Virus record (IMG/VR): IMGVR_UViG_3300044824_000068
Span: 1 to 59,131 of that record
Strand: one strand, 5' to 3'
DNA: 59,131 bases
Source of the DNA: a virus
Under the pieces are notes generated by a model that worked only from the letters and a program-made list of their open reading frames with translations, was not told the origin of the DNA and did no database searches. Shown here in pieces: positions 5,106-48,462 of the stretch; the first letter of the stretch is position 1, and each line of letters starts with the position of its first letter. The translations under genes were made by a program, and so were the position numbers.

Positions 5106-5121
5106 TGATTATACCAGATAG

Positions 5122-5127
5122 TAGAAT
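5122..5127 (+). promoter_or_regulatory. -10 box (TAGAAT) of the SF2 helicase gene
   Basis: TAGAAT, then six bases (ACACTA), then the ATG at 5134. No Shine-Dalgarno is present, so a leaderless transcript is predicted. This is one instance of a pattern repeated across the window. Confidence 0.45.
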
Positions 5128-5133
5128 ACACTA

Positions 5134-6528
5134 ATGCTGAGCCATATAGCGATTTACAACGACCGCCTCATCATTACGGATCCCTCGAAGGAGATGCGCA
5201 ACTTTATCCAGAGTGAACTGACATACACAGATAAGTCAAAACAGTATCAACTCAGACGCATGGGTAAGAATATCTGGCAGAGAAACTCACCAGCGTATAA
5301 GCAACTTCAGAGTGAAATCAAGGGAGCACTATACGAGGAGATCGCGCCGGACAAGATTGCTGTCTCGTCCTGTTTTGTTGAACTACTCAAAGACAAATTT
5401 AACACTATAGTTCCTCTGGATCTTAGAGGTGATACTGGTAAGAAGATTGCTCTTCCATGGGTGAAGAAACCTTATGACCTTAGAGACTATCAGGAAGAAG
5501 CTGTTGACCTAATGCTCTACCATCCTAGGGGACTTATTAACTTAGCAACAGGGTTAGGCAAGACCCTTCTTGCAACGCACTTTATCCAGAGATACAAGCG
5601 CCGTGCATTGATTGTGTGTCCCAGCGAATCTGTTGCTAAGCAGTTTTATGAGCAGTTTGTTGAATGCTTCGGAAAGAACAAGGTAGGTTTTTACGGTGGA
5701 GGAAAGAAGCGGATTAGTGACATTACAGTTGGTATCGCTGCTTCTATCACTAAAAATATTGCCGAATTCCAGGCCGCAGACCTCGGCGTGGTTATTTTTG
5801 ACGAGACGCACCACACCCCAGCGACTACGTTCTTTGACGTCAGTCAAGGCCTTTCTAAGACTGGAAAGGTCTTTGGACTTACAGCGACAGATTACCGCTC
5901 CGACGGTAAAGACATAATGATAACTGCAGGATGTGGACCTGTTCTCATCCGCCGTGATACAAAGTGGGGAGTCGAGAACGGATGGCTTGCTGAACCATAC
6001 TTTTTCGTCAGACAGGTTTATACGACAGGTAAAGATTACAAAGACGATAAAATCAAATCTTATAAAGAACATGTTCTCAACAGTGAGCTGATGAAGGCTC
6101 AAATACGCGATGATGCCATGAAGATGATGTCGGCAGGAAAGTCTGTCCTTATCTTAGTAGATGAGGTCGCGCACGGTAAGGAGCTCAGTGAAGAGCTCCA
6201 AATCCCCTTTGCTACGGGTATAGACTCGAAGAGTCAAGAGTATGTCAACCAATTGAACGCTGGCACAGTAAGAGGCCTTGTAGGTACTGACGGTAAGATA
6301 GGCGAGGGTTCAGATACCCAGAACGTAGATGTTTTGATCCTGGCAAATTTCGTTGCAAGTAAAGGACCTGTCACGCAAGCTGTTGGTAGAGGTTTGCGTA
6401 AACAAGGAGCGAAGACCAAATGCATCATATTAGATTACATTCCTATGGGTTCCACAATGCTGAGCCGTCACGGCTTTAACAGGGTTGAATTCTATAAAGA
6501 GATAACGGACAAGGTGAAAGTGATATGA
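5134..6528 (+). CDS. SF2 DNA helicase, UvsW/RAD25-like
   Basis: 464 residues with a complete SF2 core: motif I ATGLGKT (about residue 137), motif II DETHH (about 222), motif III LTATD (about 248) and motif VI QAVGRGLRK (about 414). The N-terminal 110 residues precede LRDYQEEAV, the Q-tip-like motif common in UvsW/XPB relatives. UvsW of T4 remodels R-loops and recombination intermediates, and the recombinase, SSB and SbcCD genes in this window make that role plausible here. The next gene overlaps by 4 bases. Start chosen at 5134, six bases after a -10-like box. Confidence 0.87.
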   Translation: MLSHIAIYNDRLIITDPSKEMRNFIQSELTYTDKSKQYQLRRMGKNIWQRNSPAYKQLQSEIKGALYEEIAPDKIAVSSCFVELLKDKFNTIVPLDLRGDTGKKIALPWVKKPYDLRDYQEEAVDLMLYHPRGLINLATGLGKTLLATHFIQRYKRRALIVCPSESVAKQFYEQFVECFGKNKVGFYGGGKKRISDITVGIAASITKNIAEFQAADLGVVIFDETHHTPATTFFDVSQGLSKTGKVFGLTATDYRSDGKDIMITAGCGPVLIRRDTKWGVENGWLAEPYFFVRQVYTTGKDYKDDKIKSYKEHVLNSELMKAQIRDDAMKMMSAGKSVLILVDEVAHGKELSEELQIPFATGIDSKSQEYVNQLNAGTVRGLVGTDGKIGEGSDTQNVDVLILANFVASKGPVTQAVGRGLRKQGAKTKCIILDYIPMGSTMLSRHGFNRVEFYKEITDKVKVI

Positions 6529-17524: not shown

Positions 17525-18077
17525 TCAAGAGTCTGCAATCAGAGGGGCTTTGCGTAGAGCTTTTTCTCGTTCTCCGTTAGTTAGAGAGGTTTTAGAAGAA
17601 TCTCGCCAAGAGTTTCCTCGTTATAAGAAGGACGGAACTCGTCATAAGAAAAACTGGGTAAAAAGACAGTGCCAAGTCTGCAACCAATGGGTCTCTAGCA
17701 GCCATATTGCAGTTGACCACATTGATCCTGTCATATCTGTTGCACGTGGTAAAGAAGACTGGAATACCTTTGTGGACCGACTATGGTGCAATACCTTAGG
17801 AAAGGCTAATCTGCAGCGTATATGCGATACGTGTCACGACGCCAAGACACAGGGTGAAAGAATAGCTCGTCTTACTATCCAGTATACTCAAGAGTTAGAT
17901 CAAATTGAGAATGAGCTGAATTCTATGTTCAGTTCCTCTTGCATTCCTAGAGACGTGGCATCTGCCTCGTATAAAAAGTGGAAGAAGGAGTTGTCAAAAT
18001 ATATCGCCAAGAAGAAGACTAAAGGGCTGGAACAGATAGTACAAAGAGCTCAGAGATTAAAAGACAAACTGAAATAA
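17502..18077 (+). CDS. HNH endonuclease
   Basis: 191 residues, overlapping the previous nuclease by 23 bases. HNH core: CQVCNQWVSSSHIAVDHIDP, then NLQRICDTCHDAKT, with the zinc-binding CxxC pairs in place. The C-terminal 70 residues form a charged helix. Two different HNH-fold nucleases side by side, between SbcC and a virion-type gene, look like a homing-gene hotspot. Confidence 0.85.
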   Translation: MKKKIKYNQESAIRGALRRAFSRSPLVREVLEESRQEFPRYKKDGTRHKKNWVKRQCQVCNQWVSSSHIAVDHIDPVISVARGKEDWNTFVDRLWCNTLGKANLQRICDTCHDAKTQGERIARLTIQYTQELDQIENELNSMFSSSCIPRDVASASYKKWKKELSKYIAKKKTKGLEQIVQRAQRLKDKLK

Positions 18078-18086
18078 GGAGTACGC

Positions 18087-18377
18087 ATGGCTGATGTAAA
18101 GAAGGTTCTTTCTAAGAGTTTCGTTGATAACCACGAGAATGTCACTGAGGACGTTGCAGCTGACCTTATTGTCAAGGCCGAGATAAAGGTTAAAGACATC
18201 AAGGAAGAGAGGGCCGCCGATGGTAAGTTGGAGCAGGCCAAGCAGATCGTGAAGGATCTAAATGGCGCCTACACGAGTGCCATCAAGTATGAGCAGGCCA
18301 AGATCGCCTTCCTTATCGAGAAGATCGAAGAGATCCAAAGTGGCGACGTTAACACCAGCTCAGGTGCTAACTCCTGA
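18087..18377 (+). CDS. Hypothetical helical small protein
   Basis: 96 residues with a good Shine-Dalgarno (AAGGAG) upstream. The sequence is an almost continuous charged helix, and the segment LEQAKQIVKDLNGAYTSAIKYEQAK carries a partial internal repeat (EQAK twice). It is probably a coiled-coil protein. No family recognised; it lies just upstream of a probably abundant protein. Confidence 0.6.
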   Translation: MADVKKVLSKSFVDNHENVTEDVAADLIVKAEIKVKDIKEERAADGKLEQAKQIVKDLNGAYTSAIKYEQAKIAFLIEKIEEIQSGDVNTSSGANS

Positions 18378-18383
18378 TAGAAT
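18378..18383 (+). promoter_or_regulatory. Extended -10 promoter (TGA-TAGAAT) of the 284-residue protein
   Basis: TGATAGAAT is followed by a 28-base leader with a strong AAGGAG site before the ATG at 18412. Together with the terminator at 19288 it forms a complete single-gene unit. Confidence 0.55.
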
Positions 18384-18411
18384 AAGGTCTACTTAGTTTT
18401 AAGGAGACTTT

Positions 18412-19266
18412 ATGAGCTTACGTGATTCCTACTTCAACGGTCCTAATGGGATCCAGCAGCAGATGGATGCCGCTTTTGCCAACGGTATGGCCTATGTAGG
18501 CGTCGGTGGCAACGATACATCCACCCTATCCTTAGGGGATAGAAACGGTTCTAACTTAGGTGCAGGTAGTGGTCAACCAGGCTTATACTTCACTTATGCA
18601 ACTCCGTCTGCAAACTATGTAATGTGGTTTTTAGTTAACGGTGAGATTGCTCCAAGTGTAGCCGGTTCGTTGATTCAAGTTCCAATCTTAAGTGGTGACA
18701 ACGCAACAGCTGTTGCAGCCAAGATTGCTAACGCAATGAACGCAGCTGCAGGTGCACCTTTCTCTGCCATCTCTGCTGCTTCAGTAGTATCCATGACGGA
18801 TAGTGCCTCTGGCGTAGCAATCCTTCCTGTCTCTGCCGGAACATTGGGTGGAACTGCGTCGGTTGCCCAGGTAACTGCTGGTATCGCTCCGACAGGTGTT
18901 TACTCAACGTTGCAAGCTGGTCTTCAGCAAGCTGCTGCCGGCGGCAAGCAAGACTTTAGAGTGGTAACTATGGGAACTGGTAACATGAATACCGCCATCT
19001 TAAGATCCAGCAATGGTAACAACCTTGCGCTCAGATCTTTCTTTGCCGGGATTCATCAAGCTCTAGCTAATCAGGAGATTTATAATTATCAAGTTCGCTT
19101 GCAGTTGGACATCAGCACAAACTCTTCAACAAACGTAATTTTTAACTTTGGTTTTGCTCGTCGTTTCGCCCACGCTCCAGTAAACCTTGACTCATTAACT
19201 TGTCCTGCTAGTACCTGCGCATCCCCTTGGGATGGTTACGGTGGAGCCGGATCAGAAGCATTCTAA
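18412..19266 (+). CDS. Probable virion protein, single-gene transcription unit
   Basis: 284 residues, rich in Ala, Gly, Ser and Asn, with the small-residue, beta-strand composition of phage capsid or decoration proteins (GNDTSTLSLGDRNGSNLG, later SVAQVTAGIAPTG). The C-terminus has two Cys flanking a short loop (LTCPASTCASPW) and ends in GYGGAGSEAF. It has its own promoter, a strong ribosome binding site and a perfect terminator, which suggests high independent expression. It is far from the main head cluster. I cannot name the family. Confidence 0.6.
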   Translation: MSLRDSYFNGPNGIQQQMDAAFANGMAYVGVGGNDTSTLSLGDRNGSNLGAGSGQPGLYFTYATPSANYVMWFLVNGEIAPSVAGSLIQVPILSGDNATAVAAKIANAMNAAAGAPFSAISAASVVSMTDSASGVAILPVSAGTLGGTASVAQVTAGIAPTGVYSTLQAGLQQAAAGGKQDFRVVTMGTGNMNTAILRSSNGNNLALRSFFAGIHQALANQEIYNYQVRLQLDISTNSSTNVIFNFGFARRFAHAPVNLDSLTCPASTCASPWDGYGGAGSEAF

Positions 19267-19287
19267 TCTCAAATCAAACTGATAAGA

Positions 19288-19319
19288 GGCCATGGTTTAC
19301 CCCATGGCCTTTTTTATTT
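19288..19319 (+). terminator. Rho-independent terminator
   Basis: Perfect 8-base stem GGCCATGG (19288-19295) with CCATGGCC (19302-19309), loop TTTACC, then TTTTTTATTT. It ends the 18412-19266 transcript just before the polymerase promoter. Confidence 0.93.
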
Positions 19320-19320
19320 G

Positions 19321-19326
19321 TATAAT
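19321..19326 (+). promoter_or_regulatory. -10 promoter (TATAAT) of the DNA polymerase gene
   Basis: TATAAT begins two bases after the terminator T-run and is followed by six bases (CTGTGC) and the ATG at 19333. This sets the true start of the polymerase gene and implies a leaderless mRNA. Confidence 0.6.
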
Positions 19327-19332
19327 CTGTGC

Positions 19333-22300
19333 ATGGCAAGATTCAAGGAACCAGCACAACTTCACAACCACAGCAAATATTCACTTCTAGATGCAGTACC
19401 TTCGCCCGAAGAGTGGGTTGCTTGGTGTCTGGAATCCGGTACTCCGGCTTTAGCGATCACGGATCATGGCACGGCCATTTCCATGTACGATGCTCTGAAG
19501 GCTAAAGATTTCATCAAGGCCTATAATACTAATAAGGTCGACGAACTCGTTCAAGAGTACACAGAAGCCAAAGGTCCTTCCAAACTCACATCTGAAGAGA
19601 CCAAGAAGTGGCAAAAAGAGAATAAGGTTGTCATTGATGCATTCGTCAATGCCAATTACACTCCACATCCTGTAGACGCAGTTACACTCATTCCAGCAGT
19701 TGAACTCTATGTCAAACTGAACGCTGAAGATAAAAGTCATTATCACATCACTGCATGGGCAGCAAGCACAGAGGGATATCACAACCTCATGAAGCTGTCA
19801 TCTATAGCCTACAACGATACCGTGTCGTTCTTTGGTTCTGTCAAGGCCCGCGTCACGTTTGATCAGATCAAGCAATATAAGAAAGGCATTAAATTTGGCA
19901 CAGGATGTATTGCAGGTCCGATTGGTAAAGCCTTCTGGGATAACGATAGAGCGCTTGCGGAAGAGCGATTCCTTATGTATCGCGAAATTTTTGGTGAAGA
20001 ACTATACATCGAGTTCCATTGTAACGATGTCACTCATAACTTTAATAAACAAACTGGAGGTTTTGACCCTATCCCAGGCGACGAATGCTCTTGTGATGGT
20101 AATAAACAAAAACACTATAACCTCTTTCTCAGGGACATGGTTGATAAATACGGGGGCAAGCCTATTCCCGTAACCGATGCTCATTTTATTGCACCGGAGG
20201 ACAAGGTAATCCAGGATTGTCTTCTTAAGAATGGTAATTCAAATGGCTGGTACTTTTATGAGTCGTATCATCAATTAAGAGCGGAGCAAATGTATGATAA
20301 ACTCAGAGCGCATCTTGGAGAGTGGCTTAGCGAGGGAAGATTTGAATCATGGATCGAGAACACTTTTGAGGTGGCGAATAGCGCAAAAAATATTAGTGTC
20401 TCTTTCGATTACCACCTGCCAAGAGTCGCTATCCCGGACCACATCCAGGAGAAAACTCCTGATTATGATAGACAAACTTATTTTTACATGATGGAGCTCA
20501 TTAAGGAGCACGGCCGTTGGAATAACGATCCAACCTATATCGCCCGCTTCAAGCAAGAAGTGGACGTCATCATGAAGAACGAGAAATTAAACTTCATACC
20601 TTACTTCCTCATCTATGAAGATATCGGTAGGTTTGCTAGGTCTCAAGGCATCCTTCAGAACATTGCACGTGGTTCTGCAGGTGGCTCTCTACTGAGCTAT
20701 TATCTCAAGATTATCCATGTTGACCCTATCAAGGCCAACCTACCGTTCGAACGGTTCCTGTCCCATGCTCGTATCAGAGCTGGATCGTTCCCCGACATCG
20801 ATGCCGACATCGGTGACCGCGCGCGGTCACTCATCATGGATTATCTCCGTAAGAAGTATGGCGCTGGGTTTGCCCAGATCTCTACGTTCCAGAAGATGAA
20901 AACGAAGAACGCCATCAAGGATGCGATGTTTGCGGTTTATGGCAGAAATCGTAACGACGTAGAGGTTAAGTTCATCTGCGATTCTATCCCAGACTCTCCA
21001 CAGGGCACGGACGAGTATGACTTCTTGTATGGTGGAACTGACCAGGAAGGCAACTACAATGCTGGACAGGTAGAGATCAATAAGAATTTGGCCAACTTCT
21101 TCGCTACGTATCCTGACGTCGAGAAGATGGTGAAGAAGCTCATCGGTACGATCCGCGGCTGGTCTCGTCACGCTTCTGCTTTCGTCATATCCACGTTGGA
21201 TCTCTCTGCAGAGCGCGTTCCCACGATGGTGATGAAGGACAAGGAACTAGGTGATATTGTCTGTACGCAGTACGATGCTAGCATGGTTGAGAAATGTAAC
21301 CTGGTCAAGGCTGATATCTTAGGTATCAAGACTCTCACGGCGGTATCTGACTGTGTGGCTCTCGTACAAGACAAGATAGATTATCTGCAGGAAGAGCAGG
21401 GTGTACCGCTCATCTATAGGTTGCCTGAATCCGAAGCAGTGTACGCTGACTTCTACAACAAAGATACAGATTCGTCATTCCAGTTTAACACCGAGTTGAT
21501 TAAGGGCTATATCCAGGAGTTCTGCCCTACTAAGCGTGCAGATCTTATGGCCATGACGGCGCTATGTCGTCCTGGCGCATTAGATGCCCCTCTTTACGAT
21601 ACTACTGCCGCTCAGTATTACATGGACGTGCGCAATGGGAAGCGCGACATAGAATATCTGCACCAAGACTTACAGCCCATAATCGAGTTTAGCAACGGCG
21701 TCTTTGTCTACCAAGAAGAAGTCATGCGATTCCTGGTAGAGGTTGCTGGCTACTCTTGGGAGCAATCAGACCTTATCCGTGGCGCTATTGCCAAGAAGAA
21801 GGGTGACGTCATCATGAACACCTTCGACAGGATCCGCGCTTCTTGCAGGTCCAGAGGATGGAATGATGATGCCATAGAAACAGTGTGTCAGCAGATTCAA
21901 GCCTTCTCAAGGTACTCATTTAACAAGTCGCACTCGTATGCGTATGCAGAATTGGGATATATCACAATGTATCTCAAGCATCACCACCCGTTCGAGTGGT
22001 GGGCAAGCGTTCTCAACGTCTATATTGACGATGAGACGAAGGTTCGCCAGTACATGTCTAAACTGGGTCCCATCGTAAGACCGCCGTCGTTAAAGTACCC
22101 AACGAACAAGTTTGAGGTAAGAGAGATCGACGGGGAGAGATGCATTGTTACCCCGCTCTCTGCTATCAAAGGTGTTGGTCCCGCTGTCGTTAGGGAACTC
22201 TGCGCAAAGGGACCCTTCCCAACACTAGAAGACTTCGTAAAGAGAATCGACCACGCAAAGGTCAACTCAGGAGGCATCTCCTATCTCCTTAAGGGAAGAG

Positions 22301-28842: not shown

Positions 28843-29292
28843 ATGGATATAGAACAACTAAGTCAGCAGATTGATCAGCAGAGATGGCTATTGAACAATG
28901 GCCTCATCACTGATACCGTCAAGGACCAGTTGTTTTTCTATGGTTCTATTGTTCATCCTGATGTGCAAGCAGTTGAAGTAAAGCTAAAACCTGAAGAGAA
29001 GAGCGTGGATTATACTATCTACGTTACTAAGAAAACTCTAAGTAGAATTGCTTTATATAACAAACTAGCCACCTCTACATCGCTATTTGGCATGTGGAGA
29101 TTCAAGCGCTTCTTAAAGAAAGAAGGCAGTTTAAATTTTCAGGGCATGTTAAGTAAATTCGTTAAGGATTTTTGTGGACCTACTTGGTCCACCAAACTCA
29201 CTATAATAGACTTCGATGTATACGTAGATAGCATTGGAGTTGAAGGTGAGCCCGACGGAACGAGTCAGCCAGCTAATAAATTGCCTGACTAA
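28843..29292 (+). CDS. Hypothetical protein upstream of terminase
   Basis: 149 residues from the ATG at 28843, which has a good ribosome binding site; a GTG-type frame extension to 28825 is less likely. Alpha/beta composition with AVEVKLKPEEKSVDYTIYVTKK and a basic segment FKRFLKKEG. No family recognised. First gene of the unit leading into packaging genes. Confidence 0.6.
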   Translation: MDIEQLSQQIDQQRWLLNNGLITDTVKDQLFFYGSIVHPDVQAVEVKLKPEEKSVDYTIYVTKKTLSRIALYNKLATSTSLFGMWRFKRFLKKEGSLNFQGMLSKFVKDFCGPTWSTKLTIIDFDVYVDSIGVEGEPDGTSQPANKLPD

Positions 29293-29668
29293 TGATGAAG
29301 ACCAACGTCAAGATTTGTGGGTCCACTATCTAAGTGGTCACTCGCCCTCGACTTTTGCCTCTCACCTCAATAAGTTGAACAGAGAGTTCTCGAACGATTC
29401 TGAGTTACAGAACTTTCTTTGGGACTTGTTCAAGAACCCTCCATCTGATAAGTTTGCACGACTTCTAGGCAACTTCAGCAACATAGAACAATCCGTAGTG
29501 TGCCTATTAGCGCTAGGACTATCTGTGAGTGAGCTAAGTGGGTATAAAGAGATAAGTGAGATAAGGATTCGACATGTTATCTCTGTAGTTAGGGAAAACG
29601 GTTGCTGGGAAGAACTTTATGGCGTTGAAGAAACGACTGACAGAAGAAGAGAGATACGGGCTGAGTGA
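29246..29668 (+). CDS. Hypothetical helical protein
   Basis: About 140 residues. The GTG at 29246 is preceded by GGAG at 6 bases; a TTG at 29234 is an alternative. Composition is helical (LWVHYLSGHSPSTFASHLNKL, later LLALGLSVSELSGYKEIS), and the last part, IRIRHVISVVRENGCWEE, could be a helix-turn-helix. It overlaps both neighbours (47 bases upstream, 50 downstream). Confidence 0.5.
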   Translation: MSPTERVSQLINCLTNDEDQRQDLWVHYLSGHSPSTFASHLNKLNREFSNDSELQNFLWDLFKNPPSDKFARLLGNFSNIEQSVVCLLALGLSVSELSGYKEISEIRIRHVISVVRENGCWEELYGVEETTDRRREIRAE

Positions 29669-32191: not shown

Positions 32192-34198
32192 ATGGCCTGG
32201 TACGACGATTGGTTAAAAAATAGGGTTCAGGGGCAGATAGAAGAGCTTTTGAAGGCTGACGGTGTTTCTGCTGTAACAGAAGTCCCACCTGGCGGTGTAT
32301 CATCGTTTGCTTCTCCAGAGACGCCAGCTGGTGCCGACGGCGACAAGTTGCCAGATATTCCAGAAGCAGATCATGATGCTGGAAAACAGATTGGTCGCAA
32401 GGCGTACGTAGACGATCCTTATTTCGACATGATTGGCACTCAAGTCAATTATAAGTTCAAACTAACGCGCATCTCCAACAAGACCCTTAAAGAAGTTTCG
32501 GTCCGTGATTGGCTCATCTCGGCCATTATTCAATGCCGCGTGGATACACTACTTAGGTTTTCTAGACCAGAACATCGTCGCTTCGAGATGGGTTTCCGCA
32601 TCATTAAGAGGGATTTCGAATCTCACTACACACCAGAAGAGAAGGACGAGATTTCAGCAATCGAAGACTTCGTATATAACTGTGGTCGTAAGGAAGGTAC
32701 TCCGCACGACGACAAAAGAAACTTCGGCGAGTTCTTGAAAGTGATCGGCCGCGACGCTTTGACATTCGGACATGTTGCCATTGAAAAGGTTAAGACAAGA
32801 GCAGGTGGTTTGCATAGGTTTCGTCCTCTCCCCGGAGAGTCGATGTACTTAATTAATAAGTCTCTCTCCAAGGAGCAGGTTAGTACCAATTCTATGAAGA
32901 GCTATCAGCTCACCAAACCTAAGAGCAACAATGATCCTAAGACTGATCAAGTTGTCAATGAAGTCGAGAATGACTACATTAAATACGTTCAGATCTCCTA
33001 CGATAATAGACCTCTTGCCACGTTTGGCGATGAAGATTGCATCTGGAAACTGTTCAACCCACAGAACTTCTCAGATTCTCTAGGATATTGCTACTCACCT
33101 CTTGAGTTGGCAATCATCAACATCACTAACCATTTGAACGTTGAAAACTACAATGCTAACTTCTTCACGCACGGTTATGCCGCTCGTGGCGTTCTTCACC
33201 TTAAGGGCACCGTAACGCAGCAGCAGCTTGCTAACTTCCGCAGAACTTTCTATAACAGCATCACTGGTCACCAGAACGCTTGGAGAACTCCGATCGTTGC
33301 GGGCCTTGATGAAGTTCAATGGGTCCCAATGTCTGCTAACGCTAAGGAGATGGAGTACCTCAACTACAACAACCATCTCATGCGCATCCTATGCGCTCAG
33401 TTCCAGATCGATCCGGTAGAGCTTGGCCTTGATTACCTCATATCTTCCAATGGCCGCGCTCCGATGCAGCAGGCTAGCAATGAATATAAGATCATCTACT
33501 CCCGTGAGCGTGGTTTAGTTCCGCTACTCATGTTCATCGAAGACATCATGAACGCTGACGTTCTGATGGCCCTGGATCCTGCTATAGCCGCTAAGTACAA
33601 GTTTGTATTTACCGGCATGACCGAAGAAACTCCTCAAACTGAGATTGCTCAGATGCAGGCGGAGATGACTGTTTGGAAGACGATGAACGATCTTCTCAAG
33701 CAGGCTCAAAAGGATAAGATCGACCAGGAAGTTGCCGATCTACCTCTCAACCAGGCATTCTGGGCACTAGTTGAGAAGAACTATACACGCGGCGAGATCC
33801 GCGAGAAATTCTTCGGCGACAAAGACGCCTCCAAGAGACGTGAGCTTCAGTATATTCCTGGGGATCCATCTTTCTTGAATTGGAATCAGTTTATTGCTAC
33901 CATTGACGCTCAGAAGAAGCAGGAAGCCCAGATGGCTTCGCAGCAAGATGCTGCCGCTCAGGAAGCTCAGATGAAGATGACTCAGGAGCAGCAGAAGCAC
34001 GACCATGCCGAAGCAGCACACGGTCGCGACAAAGAGAAGCATACCCTTGAGATGGAGCAGATCAAGGCTAAGGCCGCCAGCGATGCTGTCCAGCATGGGC
34101 TGAAGGATACTGCAAAGCAATTTGGTGCCTCTAAGGCATCAAACGTGGGTGGGCAAGAAGTCGCTAACCCAATGAACAAGAACGATGGATCAGAGTAA
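32192..34198 (+). CDS. Portal protein
   Basis: 668 residues following the large terminase, the usual place for the portal. Core features: VRDWLISAIIQCRVDTL near residue 105, YSPLELAIINITNHLNVENYN around 310, and the clip/stem region around QFQIDPVELGLDY. The last 100 residues are Gln/Lys/Glu/His-rich coiled coil (KHDHAEAAHGRDKEKH), as in portals with long barrels. Twelve copies should form the DNA entry vertex. The family assignment rests on length, position and these conserved segments. Confidence 0.85.
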   Translation: MAWYDDWLKNRVQGQIEELLKADGVSAVTEVPPGGVSSFASPETPAGADGDKLPDIPEADHDAGKQIGRKAYVDDPYFDMIGTQVNYKFKLTRISNKTLKEVSVRDWLISAIIQCRVDTLLRFSRPEHRRFEMGFRIIKRDFESHYTPEEKDEISAIEDFVYNCGRKEGTPHDDKRNFGEFLKVIGRDALTFGHVAIEKVKTRAGGLHRFRPLPGESMYLINKSLSKEQVSTNSMKSYQLTKPKSNNDPKTDQVVNEVENDYIKYVQISYDNRPLATFGDEDCIWKLFNPQNFSDSLGYCYSPLELAIINITNHLNVENYNANFFTHGYAARGVLHLKGTVTQQQLANFRRTFYNSITGHQNAWRTPIVAGLDEVQWVPMSANAKEMEYLNYNNHLMRILCAQFQIDPVELGLDYLISSNGRAPMQQASNEYKIIYSRERGLVPLLMFIEDIMNADVLMALDPAIAAKYKFVFTGMTEETPQTEIAQMQAEMTVWKTMNDLLKQAQKDKIDQEVADLPLNQAFWALVEKNYTRGEIREKFFGDKDASKRRELQYIPGDPSFLNWNQFIATIDAQKKQEAQMASQQDAAAQEAQMKMTQEQQKHDHAEAAHGRDKEKHTLEMEQIKAKAASDAVQHGLKDTAKQFGASKASNVGGQEVANPMNKNDGSE

Positions 34199-35191: not shown

Positions 35192-35841
35192 TGAAGGGTT
35201 TTAGACAGCAAGCACAGGGTTCACGTAAAGAGAGACTTCGCGAGTTGGAGGTTGAACTTAAGAATCTATCGATGTCTTCTCGTATCAACCAGATGATGAC
35301 TCAACAGTTGATGCAGAACTTGAAGCCTATGCACGAAGATTTGGTTCGCACGACTGGCCTTATCCAGGAGCTGCAATACAAGGTCCTAGCGGCTCAGAAG
35401 GTTGCAGGTCTTGACATTGAGCTCCTCAATGCAGCGGCTAATGAGATGCGTTTGGCAGATTTCACCGATGCTTCTGATAAGGAAGATGCGAGAGCTGGTT
35501 TCACTGTGGGCGCTGTTGTAGATGCTGATAGCACCGTAGTGCTAACCTCTACGACCGAAGAGAAAGATCGTGGCATCTTCCGTTCACGTCTTAAACTATC
35601 CGAGTGCGGAGTTCCTGACCTAATTCAAGCCTTCACTGGTCGTGAGGTTGGAGCTAAAGCAGTCGTACAACTCAATGGGTTAGAACATGTCGTCGAACTA
35701 CTTGCTATCCGCCAACCAGCTCCAGCAGCAGCACCGGCAACTGAAGGAAGCGCTCAAGGAGCTGGAGATACAGCTTCGAATGCTCAGGGTGACGTCGCTG
35801 CTCCGCAAGTTGCGAGTTCTGAGGTAGCGGCTACCGCGTAA
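35191..35841 (+). CDS. Hypothetical head-cluster protein, coiled coil plus beta domain
   Basis: 216 residues. Residues 1-75 form a charged coiled coil (ELEVELKNLSMSSRINQMMT). The middle is a beta-type domain (AGFTVGAVVDADSTVVLTST), and the last 40 residues are Ala/Pro/Gly-rich and disordered. It lies within an overlapping chain of genes between kinase and protease. Function unknown. Confidence 0.6.
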   Translation: MKGFRQQAQGSRKERLRELEVELKNLSMSSRINQMMTQQLMQNLKPMHEDLVRTTGLIQELQYKVLAAQKVAGLDIELLNAAANEMRLADFTDASDKEDARAGFTVGAVVDADSTVVLTSTTEEKDRGIFRSRLKLSECGVPDLIQAFTGREVGAKAVVQLNGLEHVVELLAIRQPAPAAAPATEGSAQGAGDTASNAQGDVAAPQVASSEVAATA

Positions 35842-36254
35842 TGTCTGACGAAGATAACAAGATGGATGAGAGGTGCCCACGCGCTCTGGAAGACCTCCCG
35901 AGCGAGTGGTGCCCTCTTGCCGTCATGCGTCTTCGAGCCATCAGAACGGCCGGGCGCGAACTCACTGAAGAAGAAGAATCTAAGCTTCCTGGATGCCCAT
36001 GGGCTGTGAACCATCAGCTAGCTAACTACTGCTTCTTCAAGTACATCAAGGAATTCTCTGGCGATAAGCAACCCTCTGACATGGAGGTTGCTTCTTTGAA
36101 CTGCATGTCTGTAGATGCAGTGAAGAAGACCGAGAAAACTGCCCTCAACAAGATCAGAGAGACTGAGCAATTCAAGTCTTTGAAAGAGTCAATGGAAGGT
36201 GAGAATGTGGTCAATGAACATCATTCGGACGACGACTATAAAATTTACAGATAA
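35841..36254 (+). CDS. Four-cysteine protein with sigma region 4-like helix-turn-helix
   Basis: 137 residues. The N-terminal half has four regularly framed Cys: RCPRAL, WCPLAV, GCPWAV, YCFFKY, which could bind zinc or an Fe-S cluster. Residues about 78-110 read SDMEVASLNCMSVDAVKKTE then KTALNKIRE, which closely follows the consensus of sigma factor region 4.2 (EIA..L.MS...V...E..AL.KLR), the helix-turn-helix that contacts the -35 element. It could be a transcription factor. A sigma region 2-like segment occurs at the C-terminus of the protein at 45957. It starts one base into the previous stop. Confidence 0.6.
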   Translation: MSDEDNKMDERCPRALEDLPSEWCPLAVMRLRAIRTAGRELTEEEESKLPGCPWAVNHQLANYCFFKYIKEFSGDKQPSDMEVASLNCMSVDAVKKTEKTALNKIRETEQFKSLKESMEGENVVNEHHSDDDYKIYR

Positions 36255-36423: not shown

Positions 36424-36429
36424 TATAAT
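36424..36429 (+). promoter_or_regulatory. Extended -10 promoter (TGG-TATAAT) of the protease gene
   Basis: TGGTATAAT followed by eight bases before the ATG at 36438; a near-leaderless transcript. Confidence 0.5.
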
Positions 36430-36437
36430 TGAGTGGT

Positions 36438-38096
36438 ATGGCCAAGAAACCACTCGAGATTGATGCGTGTGCAGGGTCCCAGCTTAGGGATACCCAAGGA
36501 GAGATGCTCTCCGTTGAAGGCGCTGACATATCCGAACTCCAGGCTGGCAAGGGCCGCTGGAACGACAATCATGGTAAGGGCTTCTTCAACTCAGTTGGCA
36601 GGATTACTCACGCCAAGAAGATTTTTAAAGAAGAAGACTGCGACGACGACCGCCATAGATACTACTGGAATAAGGTCAAAGCTCCATATGTCTACGTCAA
36701 GGGCTATCTATATGATGACGAAGATCATCCAAATGCAAAAGCCGCTGCTGCCATCCTTCGAAACGTTCATAAGACAGATTGCCCGTTGAAACTGAAAGCC
36801 TCCGTAGAAGGCGGAGTAATTTCGCGAGGCATTTCCGACCCATCTCTTCTTGCTCGGACCAAGATTCACAGCGTTGCACTAACTTTTACTCCCGCAAACA
36901 ACGCCACCCTCGTGGAACCGTTGAGTCTTGATAAGTCTCAATATGATGAAGCTGCAGACATGGAGCTTATCAAATCTGTTATACACCTTGCAGAAACGAA
37001 CGTACCTTCATTCCGTCACATCGCTCGTGATGCCTCAGCGTCTAAGGTGAGAGATAACATCGGGAAGATCGTTGAATTGATGAAGGGTGGTAGCACCATC
37101 GACATCCCAACCAAGCAGGAAATCCTACAGTACGCCTTGGAAGCTAAGATCCAGAACAATGTTACGCTCATCCACGAGATGATAGAGGAAGAGCTTGATA
37201 AGGGTATTAAAGACGGTATGATGGGCGCAGCCATGATGGGCGCAGCCGCTTTAGCTCCGCACGCAGCTCAAGCACCAGTAAATGCCGTTCATCAACCAGC
37301 TGCTCAGCAACAGGTTGATCTATCTAAGATGCCAAAAGAACATCAGCTCTTCTATCAAGGTATCTCTAAGAAGAATCCTGTCCTTGGCGCGATCGGTATG
37401 GTCGAGTCTAGCGGTGGTTTAAACTACGCGCATAAGCCTATGGCACAGGGTATGCATAATGGGCATGTTGCCGGCGGTATGTTCGGTATGATGCCTAACT
37501 CTGCAGAATATGCTCTACGTACTAATCCTGCGTTGGCTAAGAAGTATCCTAAGCTAGCAGAAGCTGCTAAGGACATGAAAAACAACCATCACGTGTTCAC
37601 GGATACCTTTAATTCCGATCCTCAAACAGCTTATGACTTCGCTGACGCCCTCATGAAGAGAAACAAAGGTAAGACGAAGGACTTGAGTATGTTGATTCAT
37701 TCGTGGAATCATGGACTTAAGGGTACATTTGACCGTTATAAAAAACAAGGGCCAGACGCTGTCAAAAACGATGACTATGTCAAGGGAGTAATGGAAGCTT
37801 ACAATAAGTTAGCACCAAAGCAAAATAGAAAGCCAGCAAAGCGACTCAATAAGGCGCTCACAGCTGGCTACGGTGGGGCTGGTTCCCCAACCGCGAATAC
37901 TGGCGGCGGAGTTCTTCAGAGTGAAGCTTTGGAAGACGGTAGGGGCAGCAAAAATAGCGCATTTAAGTACGTCACCTGCGACGATTGCGGTAAGGAACAA
38001 ATTTACTCTAAGTATCAAGTGAAGTGCCGCGATTGTGGCAAATCGTTTCCTATGGAAAAGCTTCATAAGCTTTTTTTAGGTGCCATCGCTACATAG
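36438..38096 (+). CDS. Head maturation protease fused to a transglycosylase-like domain and zinc ribbon
   Basis: 552 residues with four parts. (1) Residues 1-165: prohead serine protease, with RDTQGEMLSVEGADI, likely catalytic His in WNDNHGK (H45) and Ser in LKASVEGG (S122), and a VALTFTPANN strand. (2) About 295-440: lytic-transglycosylase-like, with GAIGMVESSGGL (E323), AGGMFGMMP and IHSWNHGLKGT. (3) About 471-500: TAGYGGAGSPT then TGGGVLQSEALE, nearly the same as residues 28-54 of the capsid protein. (4) Zinc ribbon CDDCGKE then CRDCGKS. The protease should process scaffold and capsid; the transglycosylase may open peptidoglycan during DNA entry. Position just before scaffold and capsid supports the call. 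Ends in TAG. Confidence 0.78.
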   Translation: MAKKPLEIDACAGSQLRDTQGEMLSVEGADISELQAGKGRWNDNHGKGFFNSVGRITHAKKIFKEEDCDDDRHRYYWNKVKAPYVYVKGYLYDDEDHPNAKAAAAILRNVHKTDCPLKLKASVEGGVISRGISDPSLLARTKIHSVALTFTPANNATLVEPLSLDKSQYDEAADMELIKSVIHLAETNVPSFRHIARDASASKVRDNIGKIVELMKGGSTIDIPTKQEILQYALEAKIQNNVTLIHEMIEEELDKGIKDGMMGAAMMGAAALAPHAAQAPVNAVHQPAAQQQVDLSKMPKEHQLFYQGISKKNPVLGAIGMVESSGGLNYAHKPMAQGMHNGHVAGGMFGMMPNSAEYALRTNPALAKKYPKLAEAAKDMKNNHHVFTDTFNSDPQTAYDFADALMKRNKGKTKDLSMLIHSWNHGLKGTFDRYKKQGPDAVKNDDYVKGVMEAYNKLAPKQNRKPAKRLNKALTAGYGGAGSPTANTGGGVLQSEALEDGRGSKNSAFKYVTCDDCGKEQIYSKYQVKCRDCGKSFPMEKLHKLFLGAIAT

Positions 38097-39226: not shown

Positions 39227-40120
39227 ATGAAAGAAGAACTAAGAAAGAGTCTTACAGACCTGATTGACGAGACGCTACTTGAGCTTGAAGAGCTTAAGAA
39301 GTCACGTTTCTCGGCAAGTGAGATCGAAGTTAAAGGGCCAGGCGAAGGAATCGCTGGCAAGCCATCGAATGGCGATCTTCATGCTAAGGCAGAAGATAAG
39401 GATGAAGACGACGAAGACGAAGAGGCTGAGAAGGCTGAAGGTCAAAACCGTCAATCAGATCCAGATGGTGGTCATCACAAGCCAGTAGCAGGCGAAGGCA
39501 TGAAGAACACCAACGGTCGTCACTCTGAGAGCCCAGGCGCAAGCGTTATGCATGGCCAAGGCAAGAACAGTGAATCTGATCCTGGAAACACACAGCACGA
39601 AAGTGAGTCTGTTTCTAAGAAGGATGAAGACGACGACAAGAAAAAGAAGGATAAGGACGCTAAGGGCGGCGAAGAGCATGAAGCTGAAGAAAAGAAAGCT
39701 ATCGGCAAGCTCGCAAACCTTGCTGGCATGAAGAAGGGCGAAAGTCCTGAACAGGTTAATTCCGAAGTCCAAAAACTTGTTATGCACGGTCTCAAGAAGT
39801 CTCAGGAAGAAACTGAGAGCTTGATGAAGAGTTTCGTTGAAGAGAGAGTAAGACCTCTTGAAGATAAGCTCTCAACAATTCTTGATCTCGTGAACAAGAT
39901 TGCAGATCAGCCTGTTCCAACTAAGGGCCTAACCGGTCGCGCCATCCCACTCTCTAAGAGCGGTAATGAGTTCGGCGGTGAAAGTCTTTCTAAGAGCGAA
40001 GTAGCTTCAAAGCTATTCGAACTTAAGAAGTCCGGAACTAAGGTTGACTCTCTGGATATTACCAGAGCTGAAATGGGACAAGATCTGAATAAGATCATTG
40101 AGAAATATAAGATTTCGTAA
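39227..40120 (+). CDS. Probable scaffold / prohead core protein
   Basis: 297 residues, highly charged and helical, with acidic low-complexity blocks (KDEDDEDEEAEKAEG; KKDEDDDKKKKDKDAKGG) and a coiled-coil C-terminal third (EETESLMKSFVEERVRPLED). This composition plus its place between protease and capsid gene is typical of phage scaffolds, which are degraded by the maturation protease. The C-terminus (EMGQDLNKIIEKYKI) may bind the capsid shell. Strong AACGAGGAG-type ribosome binding site. Confidence 0.72.
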   Translation: MKEELRKSLTDLIDETLLELEELKKSRFSASEIEVKGPGEGIAGKPSNGDLHAKAEDKDEDDEDEEAEKAEGQNRQSDPDGGHHKPVAGEGMKNTNGRHSESPGASVMHGQGKNSESDPGNTQHESESVSKKDEDDDKKKKDKDAKGGEEHEAEEKKAIGKLANLAGMKKGESPEQVNSEVQKLVMHGLKKSQEETESLMKSFVEERVRPLEDKLSTILDLVNKIADQPVPTKGLTGRAIPLSKSGNEFGGESLSKSEVASKLFELKKSGTKVDSLDITRAEMGQDLNKIIEKYKIS

Positions 40121-40138: not shown

Positions 40139-41584
40139 ATGAACGACGCAATTAATCAAGTTTTGCAAGGCCTAGATCAAGGTATCGTGTCAGCTGCTGA
40201 CATCGAGAACTTGAACAAGGCTATTACCGCCGGTTACGGCGGGGCTGGTAAGCCTACCGACCTCACCTATGGTGGCGTGTTACAGGCTGAATCTCTAGAG
40301 GCTACTCTCAAGTCGATTACTTTTGACATGAAGAACCTTAAGTTTTGGCCAGCCATTTCGGTTGACAAAGCCTACAACTTGTTCGAGCAATACAATCGCT
40401 TGATCAGTTACGGTTCTGACAGCGCACCTTACATCGGTGAAGGTGGAGCTCCTCAGGAAGAAGACAGCACGTACGTACGTGACGGTCAAAAGATCGTGTT
40501 CTTCGGTACTCGTCGTAGGGTTTCGCACCAGATGACGTTGGTACGTGTAACTGTTGGTGACATTGTCGCTCAACAGGCAAAAGAAGGCACGATGCATCTC
40601 CTCAAGAACGTAGAGCGCGAGCTTTACTGGGGCAATGCGCACTTCATGAACCAACAAACTGGTCTTGAATCCGGTTCCGACGCTGATATCCCAGTGAACA
40701 ACATCGCAATGTGCGGTCTGTTAAAGCAGCTCCAAAAGGGCGACACAGATGCTCAGATGCAAGCTGGTGACTTCCTCGGATACGGTGATTCTAGCTCGAT
40801 CGTTACTGATCTTGCTGGTCAAGTCATGGCTCAGGATGACATTGAACGTCTTGCAGTTATTGCCTTGGAAAACTTCGGTGCTCCGGATCAATTGCACATC
40901 GAACCAGCAGCCTTGTCTGCCTTCGTTAAGCAGTTCTATCCTCAGTTCCGTTCGGCTCCAGGTCTTGCTAACCAAACGGTTGGCTACGACGTCAGCAAGG
41001 TGCAAACCACTGCTGGCGCTGTTGACCTCAAGCCAAATCTCTTCCTACGTCCACGTAGCGGCGTTCGCGCCCTTGCGGTGAACGCGTTGGCCCCACAAGC
41101 AACCTTTACTGCAGTGCCTTCGGCAGTTGCAGTTACGACTTCTAGCTTCGCAGCTGGTGTCTATCAGGTTTCTGTGACGGCAGTGAACGACGCTGGTGAA
41201 TCTTCACCAATCAGCAGCTCAGTGACGCTTGCAGCAGGTAACAACCTCTCGCTCGCTATCGCTTCGGCACCAGCTGGCGTTAAGTACTGGAAGCTATATA
41301 TCTCTGCTCCAGGCGGCGCTGCAGGAACTCAGAAGTTCGCAGGCAACTGGGCTAACCAAGGATCTACCAACTATGTCAGCTCCAACGTTCAGCTCCCTGG
41401 TCTCGGAGAAGCATTCTTGCTCGACATGAGTGCTGAGTGTATGCGCTTCAAGCAACTTGCTCCTTTGAGCAAGATCAACTTCGCGATCGTAACGACCGCG
41501 TTGGAGTTTGCGATTGTTATGTACGGAGCCCTCTTCGTATACACCCCTCGCTTCAACTGCTTGTTCCGTAACATAGGCAAATAA
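40139..41584 (+). CDS. Major capsid protein with inserted Ig-like domain
   Basis: 481 residues, in the standard position after scaffold, with a strong AAAGGAG site. The N-terminus (NKAITAGYGGAGKPT, then YGGVLQAESLE) and the long core (VDKAYNLFEQYNRLISYG, EREL YWGNAHFMNQ region, then QFYPQFRSAPG) fit an HK97-fold capsid protein of the large-myovirus type. Residues about 320-420 form a fibronectin/Ig-like insertion (AAGVYQVSVTAVNDAGESSP, later KYWKLYISAPGG), a known way for capsids to display a surface domain. The C-terminus ends in the core strand ALFVYTPRFNCLFRNIG. A terminator follows. Confidence 0.88.
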   Translation: MNDAINQVLQGLDQGIVSAADIENLNKAITAGYGGAGKPTDLTYGGVLQAESLEATLKSITFDMKNLKFWPAISVDKAYNLFEQYNRLISYGSDSAPYIGEGGAPQEEDSTYVRDGQKIVFFGTRRRVSHQMTLVRVTVGDIVAQQAKEGTMHLLKNVERELYWGNAHFMNQQTGLESGSDADIPVNNIAMCGLLKQLQKGDTDAQMQAGDFLGYGDSSSIVTDLAGQVMAQDDIERLAVIALENFGAPDQLHIEPAALSAFVKQFYPQFRSAPGLANQTVGYDVSKVQTTAGAVDLKPNLFLRPRSGVRALAVNALAPQATFTAVPSAVAVTTSSFAAGVYQVSVTAVNDAGESSPISSSVTLAAGNNLSLAIASAPAGVKYWKLYISAPGGAAGTQKFAGNWANQGSTNYVSSNVQLPGLGEAFLLDMSAECMRFKQLAPLSKINFAIVTTALEFAIVMYGALFVYTPRFNCLFRNIGK

Positions 41585-44368: not shown

Positions 44369-44381
44369 GTTAAACTCACGG

Positions 44382-44387
44382 TATAAT
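44382..44387 (+). promoter_or_regulatory. -10 promoter (TATAAT) of the second virion cluster
   Basis: CGGTATAAT followed by a 25-base leader with TTTTAGGAG before the GTG start at 44413. Confidence 0.55.
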
Positions 44388-44793: not shown

Positions 44794-45957
44794 GTGGAAC
44801 TCAAAAGTTTCAGGGAGGTCCTCCTTAAAAAGGCGGATGGTAATCCCTACTTACAGACATTGATCAAGTATGCTAAGGATGAACTCATCGCTGAGGAAGT
44901 TCTTGAAGCTCTACTAAAGATGGCAGAGCCTTCTGCTGCTATGGGTCGCGGTGCTAACCACGCCGTTACCTCGTACGCTGCAGGCATGAAACCTGTACAC
45001 GTAGAACAACTTCGAGACGCTCTCGGTCACCACATCTCTCATTACAAAGGTGCACTGAAGGCACATCATGAAGCAGAACCTGGTCCTCAAAAAGAAAAGA
45101 TGCGCAACGTTGCAGATAAGCATCTCAACCAGATCATACCATTGATGCACCTCGCAGGTAAGGCAAGCAAGCATTCAGGTGGAAATCTAACTATCGACTA
45201 TCCTAGTACCACACCTTGGGAAACAAACTATACATCTACCGAAAGACTTCCAAACGGCAAGCTCAAGGAAGGCACAAAGGACCTTGGTCGCAGGATCTCT
45301 CCCAATGCAAACCGCGCCAAGAACCCAAGAGCTGTACCGAATTACAGGTACCTTGAGATGCCGCCACACCCAGGTCACGCCGCTACAGAGAAGTCGCCTC
45401 ACAAAGGTGGATATCCATTCGAGGAGATCCAACTTGGAACTCCTATGAAGCGCGATGCCGGCCAAGCATATCTCCCTGTAGAAAACGTAAAGGGCATCAA
45501 GGATTATGTGCCTCACCCGTTCGATGCGCATCCAGTACATCGTCACGCCGATACTCCTCAGCATGAGCTCGGACCTGAGCATCACGAGATGATTAATTCT
45601 GGTCTTGCCAGCTGGGCAGATAGTGAACCTCACAAACAGTGGCTTGCAGATCAGAAGGCGAAGCACGCTGCTGATCCGGAAGCTTACAAGGCTAGAGGCG
45701 CTAAGAAGCCCAAGCATGTGTACGACGGTATTCCACTTCAAGAGATGGAGCATCATAAGAATGCTCCAGTACAAGCGTCTGCGCCCGCAGAAGCCGAATC
45801 GAAAATTGCCGCTCAATCGCCTAACAAAGAACCTAAAAAGTCGGCCAAGGAAGCTGACCTTGATCAGAGAAGAAAAGTTTGGAGCACCTTAGATAAAGAA
45901 GCCAAGAAGCATTTCAAAGAAGGAAAGATGTTTCCTGAAGATGAATTTAAGGTGTAA
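44794..45957 (+). CDS. Hypothetical virion-cluster protein, His/Pro-rich
   Basis: 387 residues from a GTG start. The first 50 residues are helical; the rest is unusually rich in His, Pro and Lys (YVPHPFDAHPVHRHADTPQH), with a basic acidic-tipped C-terminus. It may be an internal head protein or a substrate of the maturation protease. Unknown family. The next gene starts at its stop. Confidence 0.58.
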   Translation: MELKSFREVLLKKADGNPYLQTLIKYAKDELIAEEVLEALLKMAEPSAAMGRGANHAVTSYAAGMKPVHVEQLRDALGHHISHYKGALKAHHEAEPGPQKEKMRNVADKHLNQIIPLMHLAGKASKHSGGNLTIDYPSTTPWETNYTSTERLPNGKLKEGTKDLGRRISPNANRAKNPRAVPNYRYLEMPPHPGHAATEKSPHKGGYPFEEIQLGTPMKRDAGQAYLPVENVKGIKDYVPHPFDAHPVHRHADTPQHELGPEHHEMINSGLASWADSEPHKQWLADQKAKHAADPEAYKARGAKKPKHVYDGIPLQEMEHHKNAPVQASAPAEAESKIAAQSPNKEPKKSAKEADLDQRRKVWSTLDKEAKKHFKEGKMFPEDEFKV

Positions 45958-47525
45958 TGAAAATGTCAGCACTTATAAAGACACCAAAATCTGAAGATCT
46001 TGAAAGCTTAGAAGCCATACTGCTTAAGGCACGTAGGCGTCTATCTGACGAGGTCGAAGATCCAGACGAGCAAGAACAATCGCTGGAAGATCAAGGCATG
46101 CACGAGTTGGACCCTGATGAGCAGGACAACGCCGACAAGTGGTTGCAAGAAAACGATCCTGAGAAAAAGGATGAGGACGATGACGATGAACCTAAAGAAT
46201 ATGATGAGTTCCGCCCAGGCGAAGATGAAGATGCTTATAGACAAAGCATCGGGCTCGATGAAAGCCCTGATGCAGAACCTCAAGATGAAGGTAGTGAGCC
46301 TGTTGCAGAAGATGAAACTTCTGGAGCAGAAGGAGGAGCAAGTGATCAAGGAGAAGGTAGTCCAGATCAAGTCGAAGATGAAGAGGAAGAGCCCGCCGAA
46401 GAAGTAAAGCCAGAGGGTCGTTTCCCTCAGCCTTCCAAGGAAGAAATTGCTGAGATGCGTCAGCATACTCGTCCGTGGGAGCAGAACGCCAGAGAGAAGA
46501 CTCGTCTTGAAGCTGAAGCTCACAAGAATCCAGTGCTGCATCATCAAGGAAAGATGATCGAAGCTAGGAATGCTGCACACAACCCTCATCAAGAAGCTTA
46601 CGCTAAGTTTCAAGCTTCGCCAGACTATCAGAATGCAGATCCTGTCACACAGATGGAGATGGATAGCAAGTTTGAATCCGACTTCCATAAGGAGAACCCA
46701 GAGTATCTAGCTAATGCGGCCAAGCTTCATGGACAAGCTCACGTTGAAGGTTTGCAAGGCATGGGTGAAGGTTTCGGTCATAAAAAGGACAGCATCCAAC
46801 ATATCAGGCAAGGTGGCGCAAGCCCTGAGACTCCTATGTCTGTTGAAGAGGGTATGCAGCACGCTGGCGGTGCTAAAGGTGAAGAGGGCACTACCGGTTC
46901 CATGGTGCAAGACCCTGCTTCGGCTTTTGCCCAGCATCACAGGAAGTTCCTGGAAGAGATGGGAGCAAAGCATGAAGATAAGGCTAGTGCCAAGCAGCAG
47001 AAGTATAGCGATATGGCGCAGGACTACGCTAAAAAACTCGGTAGCCAAAGCGGTGTCGATCTTAAGTCTATGGTGAGCAAGCATCCACCGGATGTAGCTG
47101 ACAGATTGAAGAGGATAGATAGCTTTAAGAATGCTAACACATCGAAGCAGCAACAAAAGCCTCAGGCTAAATCTAAGGTTGATAGTTTTTTTGAGCAGTA
47201 CCATCCGCTCATCGGCATGCATGCTCATAAGGTGCTCAACAAGTTAGGATTAGATAAGAAGAACGTGGATCTTGGTGTACTACATGAAGCTGGCATGCAC
47301 GGTTTGATGCAGGCCATAAATGACTACGATCACGAGAATCCAGGTAAGGCTAGCTTTGCTACCCATGCCGGTAATAAGATAAGTGGACTTATGCAGACGG
47401 CCATGAGGGATCAGATGCAGACGCCACAGCAGCTCACCTCTGAAGCTAATAAGTTTCAGCATAAGCAGCAAGCTTCGGTGCCGAAGGTAACTATGCCTAA
47501 GCCTGAAGGAGGAACGAATGAGTAA
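45957..47525 (+). CDS. Acidic virion-cluster protein with C-terminal sigma region 2-like domain
   Basis: 522 residues. The first 160 are extremely acidic and disordered (KKDEDDDDEPKEYDE). The middle is Gln/His/Glu-rich and helical. Residues about 410-488 read FFEQYHPLIGMHAHKVLNKL, then DLGVLHEAGMHGLMQAINDY, GKASFATHAGNKISGLMQTA, MRDQ. This follows sigma70 region 2: L..AIAKR-type helix, DLIQEG..GLL.A...FD, then FSTYA...I..AI.R..RD, with the core-binding DL and the FAT-type motif in the right order. It may be a sigma-like factor carried in the head. No region 4 is in the same protein; a region 4-like helix-turn-helix is encoded at 35841. Confidence 0.62.
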   Translation: MKMSALIKTPKSEDLESLEAILLKARRRLSDEVEDPDEQEQSLEDQGMHELDPDEQDNADKWLQENDPEKKDEDDDDEPKEYDEFRPGEDEDAYRQSIGLDESPDAEPQDEGSEPVAEDETSGAEGGASDQGEGSPDQVEDEEEEPAEEVKPEGRFPQPSKEEIAEMRQHTRPWEQNAREKTRLEAEAHKNPVLHHQGKMIEARNAAHNPHQEAYAKFQASPDYQNADPVTQMEMDSKFESDFHKENPEYLANAAKLHGQAHVEGLQGMGEGFGHKKDSIQHIRQGGASPETPMSVEEGMQHAGGAKGEEGTTGSMVQDPASAFAQHHRKFLEEMGAKHEDKASAKQQKYSDMAQDYAKKLGSQSGVDLKSMVSKHPPDVADRLKRIDSFKNANTSKQQQKPQAKSKVDSFFEQYHPLIGMHAHKVLNKLGLDKKNVDLGVLHEAGMHGLMQAINDYDHENPGKASFATHAGNKISGLMQTAMRDQMQTPQQLTSEANKFQHKQQASVPKVTMPKPEGGTNE

Positions 47526-48462
47526 CGGAAACGACGATTTTAACCCACCATACGGTCAGACATCAGATGGCCTATACGAAGATTTAGTTGGCGACTTCGA
47601 AGGTACGTCCGGCAATATCATGGGCACTGGCATTGTCAGAACTCCCACCATTCAACCGTTCCCTGCTTGGTCAACGCACCAAGAGATGGATCGCTACCTT
47701 CCTCTTCCTAACCCAGAAACCATGAAGAGAGGTCCTCTCTTTGGTCTCCCGCTGAGATCGTTCTTGACACAGCAAGAAGTCGATGACCGCACCATTGAGG
47801 CATACATCTCACAGGCTATCTCCGAGATAGAACATACCTTGAATCTGTTCATCACTCCTGTCACGTTCGAGGAGAGACACGATTACAGCAGAGAGATGCA
47901 GTTCTACGCCTTCGGCATTATCAAGCTTTATAACTCACCTATCCTAAACGTAGAGGAGTACGAACTCACGTTCAATAACGGAATTGGAATCCCTGGGTCC
48001 CTGCCGTTGGTAAAGATTCCACTTGAGTTCATCCACGTTCAACCTCAAGATGGTACGATTCAACTTGTTCCAGCTCAAGGTGTAACTATCTCTGGCTTTA
48101 TTGTCAGCATCTATTCTGGCCTAGGCTATCACGCGTTTAACTCACAAGCTATATCCTACTGGCCAGGAGCTGTATTCGTGAAGTATAGAGCTGGCTTTGA
48201 GAAGCATAAGGTTCCAGCTTTGTTAGTAGCCTTGATAGAGAACTTAGCAGCATATAAGTTTTTATCTGCGCTAGGTCCAGTATTGTTTCCGTATAACTCC
48301 ACCAGCGTGGGTATCGACGGTACTAGCCAAAGCGTTAGCACCCCAGGGCCTCTGTTCTTGCAGAACAGATTGAAGGACCTGCAAAACATGATTCAAACTG
48401 AGATGGAAGCTGCAAAGGGCTACTACCAGAAGAGATTCTTAGTAGACGCGTTAGGATATTAA
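47518..48462 (+). CDS. Probable head-tail connector / neck protein
   Basis: 314 residues, overlapping the previous gene by 8 bases. A helical region (QEVDDRTIEAYISQAISEIE) is followed by strands and ends in a helix (LKDLQNMIQTEMEAAKGYYQ). The EARLY helix bundle plus ..YSGLGYHAFNSQAI.. beta section is like head-completion proteins, but the match is weak. Context of head genes supports a virion role. Confidence 0.5.
   Translation: MSNGNDDFNPPYGQTSDGLYEDLVGDFEGTSGNIMGTGIVRTPTIQPFPAWSTHQEMDRYLPLPNPETMKRGPLFGLPLRSFLTQQEVDDRTIEAYISQAISEIEHTLNLFITPVTFEERHDYSREMQFYAFGIIKLYNSPILNVEEYELTFNNGIGIPGSLPLVKIPLEFIHVQPQDGTIQLVPAQGVTISGFIVSIYSGLGYHAFNSQAISYWPGAVFVKYRAGFEKHKVPALLVALIENLAAYKFLSALGPVLFPYNSTSVGIDGTSQSVSTPGPLFLQNRLKDLQNMIQTEMEAAKGYYQKRFLVDALGY

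Follow-up and report, generated by a model that had tools for sequence, protein, structure and literature searches.

A diverged sigma-70 region 2 within a head-cluster protein from uncultured SPO1-like phages

The head gene cluster and its 522-residue protein

The virus record analyzed here (the window) spans 59,131 bases, and coordinates are counted within it unless another contig is named. Its head module is kin to that of SPO1-like phages, and the phage group to which the protein described below belongs is uncultured and SPO1-like; judged by the terminase (28% identity), Myxococcus phage Mx1 is the closest isolate. The module includes the genes for the portal (32192-34198), the prohead protease (36429-38096), and a major capsid protein of the SPO1 gp6.1 type (40139..41584, + strand), the last matching phrog_752 (4.2e-59) and showing 31% identity to SPO1-like capsids. 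Adjoining the capsid gene on its 5' side is an acidic, probable scaffold gene (39227..40120, +) in the position of SPO1 gp3.3, for which a search for family matches found none. Residues about 320-395 of the capsid protein form an Ig/Fn3-like stretch (weak PKD match), and within ORF 36429-38096 the protease is apparently followed by a lysozyme/transglycosylase-like stretch and a Cys-rich, zinc-ribbon-like C-terminus, both parts being unrecognized by Pfam.

Downstream of the capsid gene, an intact ORF (45957..47525, +) encodes a head-cluster protein of 522 aa, orthologs of which occupy the equivalent place among the genes of more than 17 viral contigs. Its ATG overlaps the stop codon of the upstream gene (TAATG), and the ORF shares its last 8 bases with the following gene. 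The upstream neighbor, a 387-aa gene (44794..45957, +), always lies immediately 5' of it in the relatives, and in contig L097 the two are joined in a single ORF of 780 aa (17721-20063). The downstream neighbor (47518..48462, +), found immediately 3' in every relative showing both genes, encodes a head-tail adaptor-like protein of the SPO1 gp6.3 type, the match to the gp6.3 family (phrog_772, 9.7e-29) being stronger than that to the head-tail adaptor family (phrog_442, 2.4e-4). In contig L001, an endonuclease-like ORF, also of 522 aa (4446-6014), is located between the capsid gene and an exonuclease gene; the window has none there.

The 522-aa protein consists of several distinct parts. The N-terminal residues 1-154 (45957..46418, +) are acidic and mostly disordered, with pLDDT mostly below 60, and are followed by a conserved helical core at residues 155-345 (46419..46991, +), which is retained in relatives without the sigma domain (L121, L123-L125, and L127) and is modeled by AlphaFold2 with pLDDT of about 70-95 at residues 151-290 and 82-92 at 321-360, dropping to low values at 289-316. 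A short motif, HPPDVADRLKRIDSFK, lies within residues 368-395 (47058..47141, +) and in the window precedes the sigma domain. Of the 17 main-clade proteins, 16 carry the corresponding pattern, HPxxxDRLKRI, C-terminal to the domain, and the window copy carries it N-terminal to the domain, a difference in position relative to L001, L002, L004, and others that amounts to an internal rearrangement.

The first-pass annotation had described everything outside the sigma-like domain as acidic and scaffold-like. Acidity holds for residues 1-160 (pI 4.05, charge -44), the remaining residues not being acidic, and the scaffold assignment is not upheld: the acidic gene at 39227-40120, immediately 5' of the capsid gene, holds the scaffold position of SPO1, whereas the gene for the 522-aa protein lies 3' of the capsid gene, so that the true scaffold is probably encoded by another gene.

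Sigma-70 region 2 near the C-terminus

A sigma70 region 2 had been proposed at residues about 410-488 of the 522-aa protein, a call borne out by sequence match to FliA, profile, and predicted fold, with a slightly longer true span of residues 402-490 (47160..47426, +). When the single protein was compared with PDB sequences using phmmer, it matched FliA sigma factors only (E=1.5e-5, residues 393-490), and a domain profile built from 14 distinct orthologs from viral contigs matched FliA (1.1e-7) and the sigma factor WhiG (6pfv; 2.8e-7), the alignment spanning region 2.1 to the start of region 3. AlphaFold2 places helices at residues 402-413, 416-430, 439-456, 467-486, and 491-506, with pLDDT of about 73-91 per block of ten; the last of these is region-3.0-like (47427..47474, +), and the FliA/WhiG alignment reaches into 'IPRSVR'. 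Soon after this helix the chain stops without a region 4, so the protein is not a complete sigma factor. A Foldseek search with the model ranked sigma factors first, among them FliA (9wsm_F; rmsd 2.0 over 76 columns) and the N-terminal domain of SigE (8b3z; TM(target) 0.71), each with probability 1.00; the E-values are weak (0.15 and 0.52), owing to the length and partial disorder of the query. In VIA-align, the best 50 matches listed are all sigma-factor entries, headed by FliA (Z 9.7, rmsd 2.1, 79 aligned, 35% identity). Thus, a sigma match was obtained and the model contains the region 2 bundle, the two findings whose absence had been set beforehand as refuting the assignment.

The window copy does not reach the Pfam Sigma70_r2 (PF04542) cut-off of 24 bits and yields no match to that family, and, together with the weak Foldseek E-values for a long, partly disordered model, this could suggest a chance similarity or an artefact, that is, a helical bundle mistaken for sigma or a misassembled fusion. 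We regard this as barely conceivable: independent sequence and fold evidence concur, the same cut-off is passed by the G020 ortholog, at 29.1 bits, and by that of G022, at 30.4 bits, and an identical fusion arrangement is common to 17 records, with another arrangement in one more. Hence, from sequence comparison and the predicted structure, it is nearly certain that residues 402-490 are a diverged but genuine sigma-70 region 2 of the FliA/WhiG type, the segment with which bacterial sigma factors grip RNA polymerase and melt DNA.

The sigma domain is also the best-conserved part of the protein. Mean pairwise identity is 0.69 across residues 402-490 and peaks at 0.76 in residues 439-486, which correspond to regions 2.2-2.4, compared with 0.40 for residues 1-154, 0.59 for 155-290, and 0.56 for 291-345. 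Conservation of individual functional positions is mixed. The conserved basic residues K474 and R/K484 align with R74 and R84 of FliA, which are DNA-contacting positions in that factor. In contrast, the alignment position equivalent to sigma-70 D403 (FliA D43), a position important for core binding, is Asp in FliA, WhiG, G022, and the free domain of G028 but is occupied by V, M, L, Q, A, or R in the main clade (V441 in the window), and the Tyr430 position is His in most main-clade copies. Given these two substitutions, core binding may have been lost in the main clade.

Distribution of the domain and candidate region 4 partners

The head-cluster protein occurs both with and without the sigma domain. 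Orthologs in G019, G024, G025, G031, G038, and G027/G028 keep the core and lack the domain. In a tree of the adaptor-like protein and the sigma-less part of the head-cluster protein, the 17 main-clade fusions group together with 100/100 support, whereas G022, in which the domain sits at the very end of the protein, falls among the domain-less records; the tree calls for two changes, and on the basis of the tree and the position of the domain, the two kinds of fusion may have arisen in separate events. In five records of 172-177 kb (G003, G008, G015, G017, and G022), no region 2 other than the fused copy was detected. The 165.8-kb record G028 presents the reverse arrangement, with a head protein devoid of the domain and a free region 2 protein of 159 aa encoded elsewhere. 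G028 additionally encodes an RpoD-like sigma factor (L146 1141-1830, -) that ends before the region 4 helix-turn-helix; this protein and the annotated sigma factor of Mx1 (L154 2071-3078) both end at the start of region 4, and inspection of the other reading frames found no region 4 continuation of either gene.

Beyond these viral contigs, tblastn of the whole 522-aa protein against known phages gave no match, and one scan of genome contigs for its relatives returned none. With region 2 of G022 as the tblastn query, the phage records matched proved, where inspected, to carry ordinary sigma-factor genes only. Neither the literature searched nor a search of about 50,000 phage records yielded a case of a sigma domain joined to a phage head-cluster or structural protein.

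A candidate for the missing half of the sigma factor is encoded in the same cluster. The 137-aa, Cys-rich protein at 35841..36254 (+) contains a region-4.2-like helix-turn-helix and belongs to a family of 127-139 aa across relatives that is carried by at least 80 viral contigs. Pfam Sigma70_r4 matches 18 of its 24 relatives (best 9.1e-6), and in the genome search those in G010 and G011 exceed the cut-off, whereas the window's own copy taken alone has no Pfam match. A structure prediction of this protein has a mean pLDDT of 47 and no confident fold, and tblastn against known phages found no match. We considered whether its region 4 signature, KK[IT]EK, is exclusive to genomes with sigma-bearing head proteins and dropped the idea, because L097, which lacks the domain, has the signature too. 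A second helix-turn-helix protein, of 144 aa (29234..29668, +), is conserved 5' of the terminase genes and faintly region-4-like, with weak Sigma70_r4 matches only; it is a rival candidate.

Region 2 and region-4-like proteins are thus encoded separately in the same genome, and by analogy a split sigma factor in the manner of T4 gp55/gp33 or SigO/RsoA is plausible. The two proteins are observed to be encoded together, and the 35841 protein is a putative partner of the fused region 2.

Promoters and possible roles of the fused domain

A GTATAAT promoter-like element without a recognizable -35 lies 5' of the gene cluster (44381..44387, +). Sites of this type, likewise without a -35 signal, are enriched throughout all genomes searched, and a search across genomes for a distinct late promoter motif yielded none separate from GTATAAT. 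The arrangement of GTATAAT, exactly 6 bases, and the ATG or GTG of an ORF is strongly over-represented (in the window, for example, at 17011, 19320, 32179, and 42158; also L155-L190), and a start codon follows within 3-9 bases at 26-45% of the sites, compared with 1-8% for control words, a pattern from which leaderless transcripts appear probable. The host sigma factor may be sufficient to read these sites. Because the genes overlap and the promoter-like site is at 44381, the 522-aa protein would be expressed only within the head operon; such expression makes a classical late-sigma role awkward, and late action or action following injection fits better.

We tentatively favor, as a possibility that falls somewhat short of probable, a joint reading in which the fused region 2 still engages host RNA polymerase, supplying one half of a split sigma factor, and the other parts of the 522-aa protein serve head assembly. 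The domain would bind the polymerase core through the beta' clamp helices, along with -10 DNA, the 35841 protein would probably supply the other half, and the remainder of the chain would act in the head; the domain would act at a late stage of infection, whereas a packaged and injected protein would act at the onset of the following infection. Consistent with this reading are the sigma homology and fold, with orthologs over the Pfam cut-off, the peak of conservation in regions 2.2-2.4, the five records with only the fused copy and the free form in G028, the co-occurrence with the region-4-like protein, and the existence of two-protein precedents. Against it stand the substitutions at the D403 and Tyr430 positions, the lack of a distinct late promoter where GTATAAT-type sites are readable by host sigma, the lack of a confident fold for the 35841 protein, whose helix-turn-helix signature also occurs in L097, and the availability of the 29234 protein as a second candidate partner.

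The loss of the D403 equivalent and the changed melting aromatics in the main clade would fit co-option of the region 2 bundle, whether as a structural or protein-binding element of the head-tail region or as a sigma mimic with an anti-sigma factor or polymerase as its target, in either case with no role in initiation. One degenerate sigma mimic, PhyR, is known (PMC8103513), and both the head operon context and the assembly of relatives without the domain are compatible with such co-option. We consider it unlikely, given that regions 2.2-2.4, beyond the fold core, including K474 and R/K484, are the most conserved, and that G028 has a free region 2 protein. Through this conservation, the basic residues, and the exchange of fused for free forms (one case), a transcription role gains support, and we rate transcription-related action above co-option, not strongly.

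The operon structure bears on a further possibility, in which the 522-aa protein is packaged in the head and enters with the DNA, whereupon its sigma domain steers host RNA polymerase to the first phage promoters. Synthesis from the head operon would be late for starting late transcription and well timed for packaging, the overlapping reading frames lock the gene in that operon, the phage promoters lack a -35, and the virion polymerases of N4 and phiKZ offer a precedent (PMC4496689, PMC4666361). The same sites are nevertheless readable by host sigma, and a known packaging signal was not recognized in the protein; overall, this scenario is rather doubtful. Some orthologs bear an N-terminal motif, absent from the window copy, which had no tblastn match in known phages. 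In particle proteomics of another phage, SU10, a single peptide represents its sigma factor, which does not suffice for a conclusion (PMC4281155). The most specific version, a virion protein that carries the region 2 half, is packaged with the genome, pairs on entry with the region-4-like partner, and steers polymerase to -35-less promoters, is improbable; if true, a single protein would tie assembly of the particle to DNA entry and to the choice of promoters.

Sigma factors are normally free regulators, and here a domain of the core-binding type is built into a conserved head-cluster protein. Should the domain bind polymerase, virion assembly or genome delivery would be coupled to transcription, and the fusion would represent a new form of split sigma factor, testable with a small expressible domain; if only the fold has been co-opted, region 2 would have been reused in an unusual way.

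Among known systems, the group 3 factors FliA/sigma-28 and WhiG are the best match in both sequence and structure, sharing the fold, the order of regions 2.1-2.4, and the start of region 3.0; the 522-aa chain differs from them in lacking regions 3 and 4, in embedding the domain within an unrelated acidic head-cluster protein, and, in the main clade, in lacking the acidic D403 equivalent. SPO1 has related head genes, with gp6.2 (119 aa, no sigma domain) in the place of the 522-aa protein; its late sigma activity is annotated as gp34 plus the accessory gp33, and a profile comparison with SPO1 gp28, gp33, and gp34 gave no usable similarity. One jumbo phage group has minimal sigma factors with a helix-turn-helix only (PMC7824862). 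The virion RNA polymerases of N4 and phiKZ would share with the present protein the possible function of placing transcription machinery in the particle, but are themselves polymerases. PhyR, a response regulator whose binding target is an anti-sigma factor, resembles the 522-aa protein by description in combining a sigma-like domain with a domain of another kind (PMC8103513). The two-protein SigO/RsoA sigma factor of Bacillus subtilis (PMC8103513) has regions 4 and 2 on separate proteins, both free-standing and bacterial, with no structural protein involved. In T4, whose gp55 and gp33 form a split sigma factor (PMC2988020), region 2 is separated from the region 4 equivalent, as proposed here; T4 gp55 is a small, free protein that binds the sliding clamp, whereas in this phage group region 2 forms part of a fusion with a 400-aa head-cluster protein and is free only in G028, and the candidate partner, in contrast to the gp33 pairing, has a recognizable helix-turn-helix.
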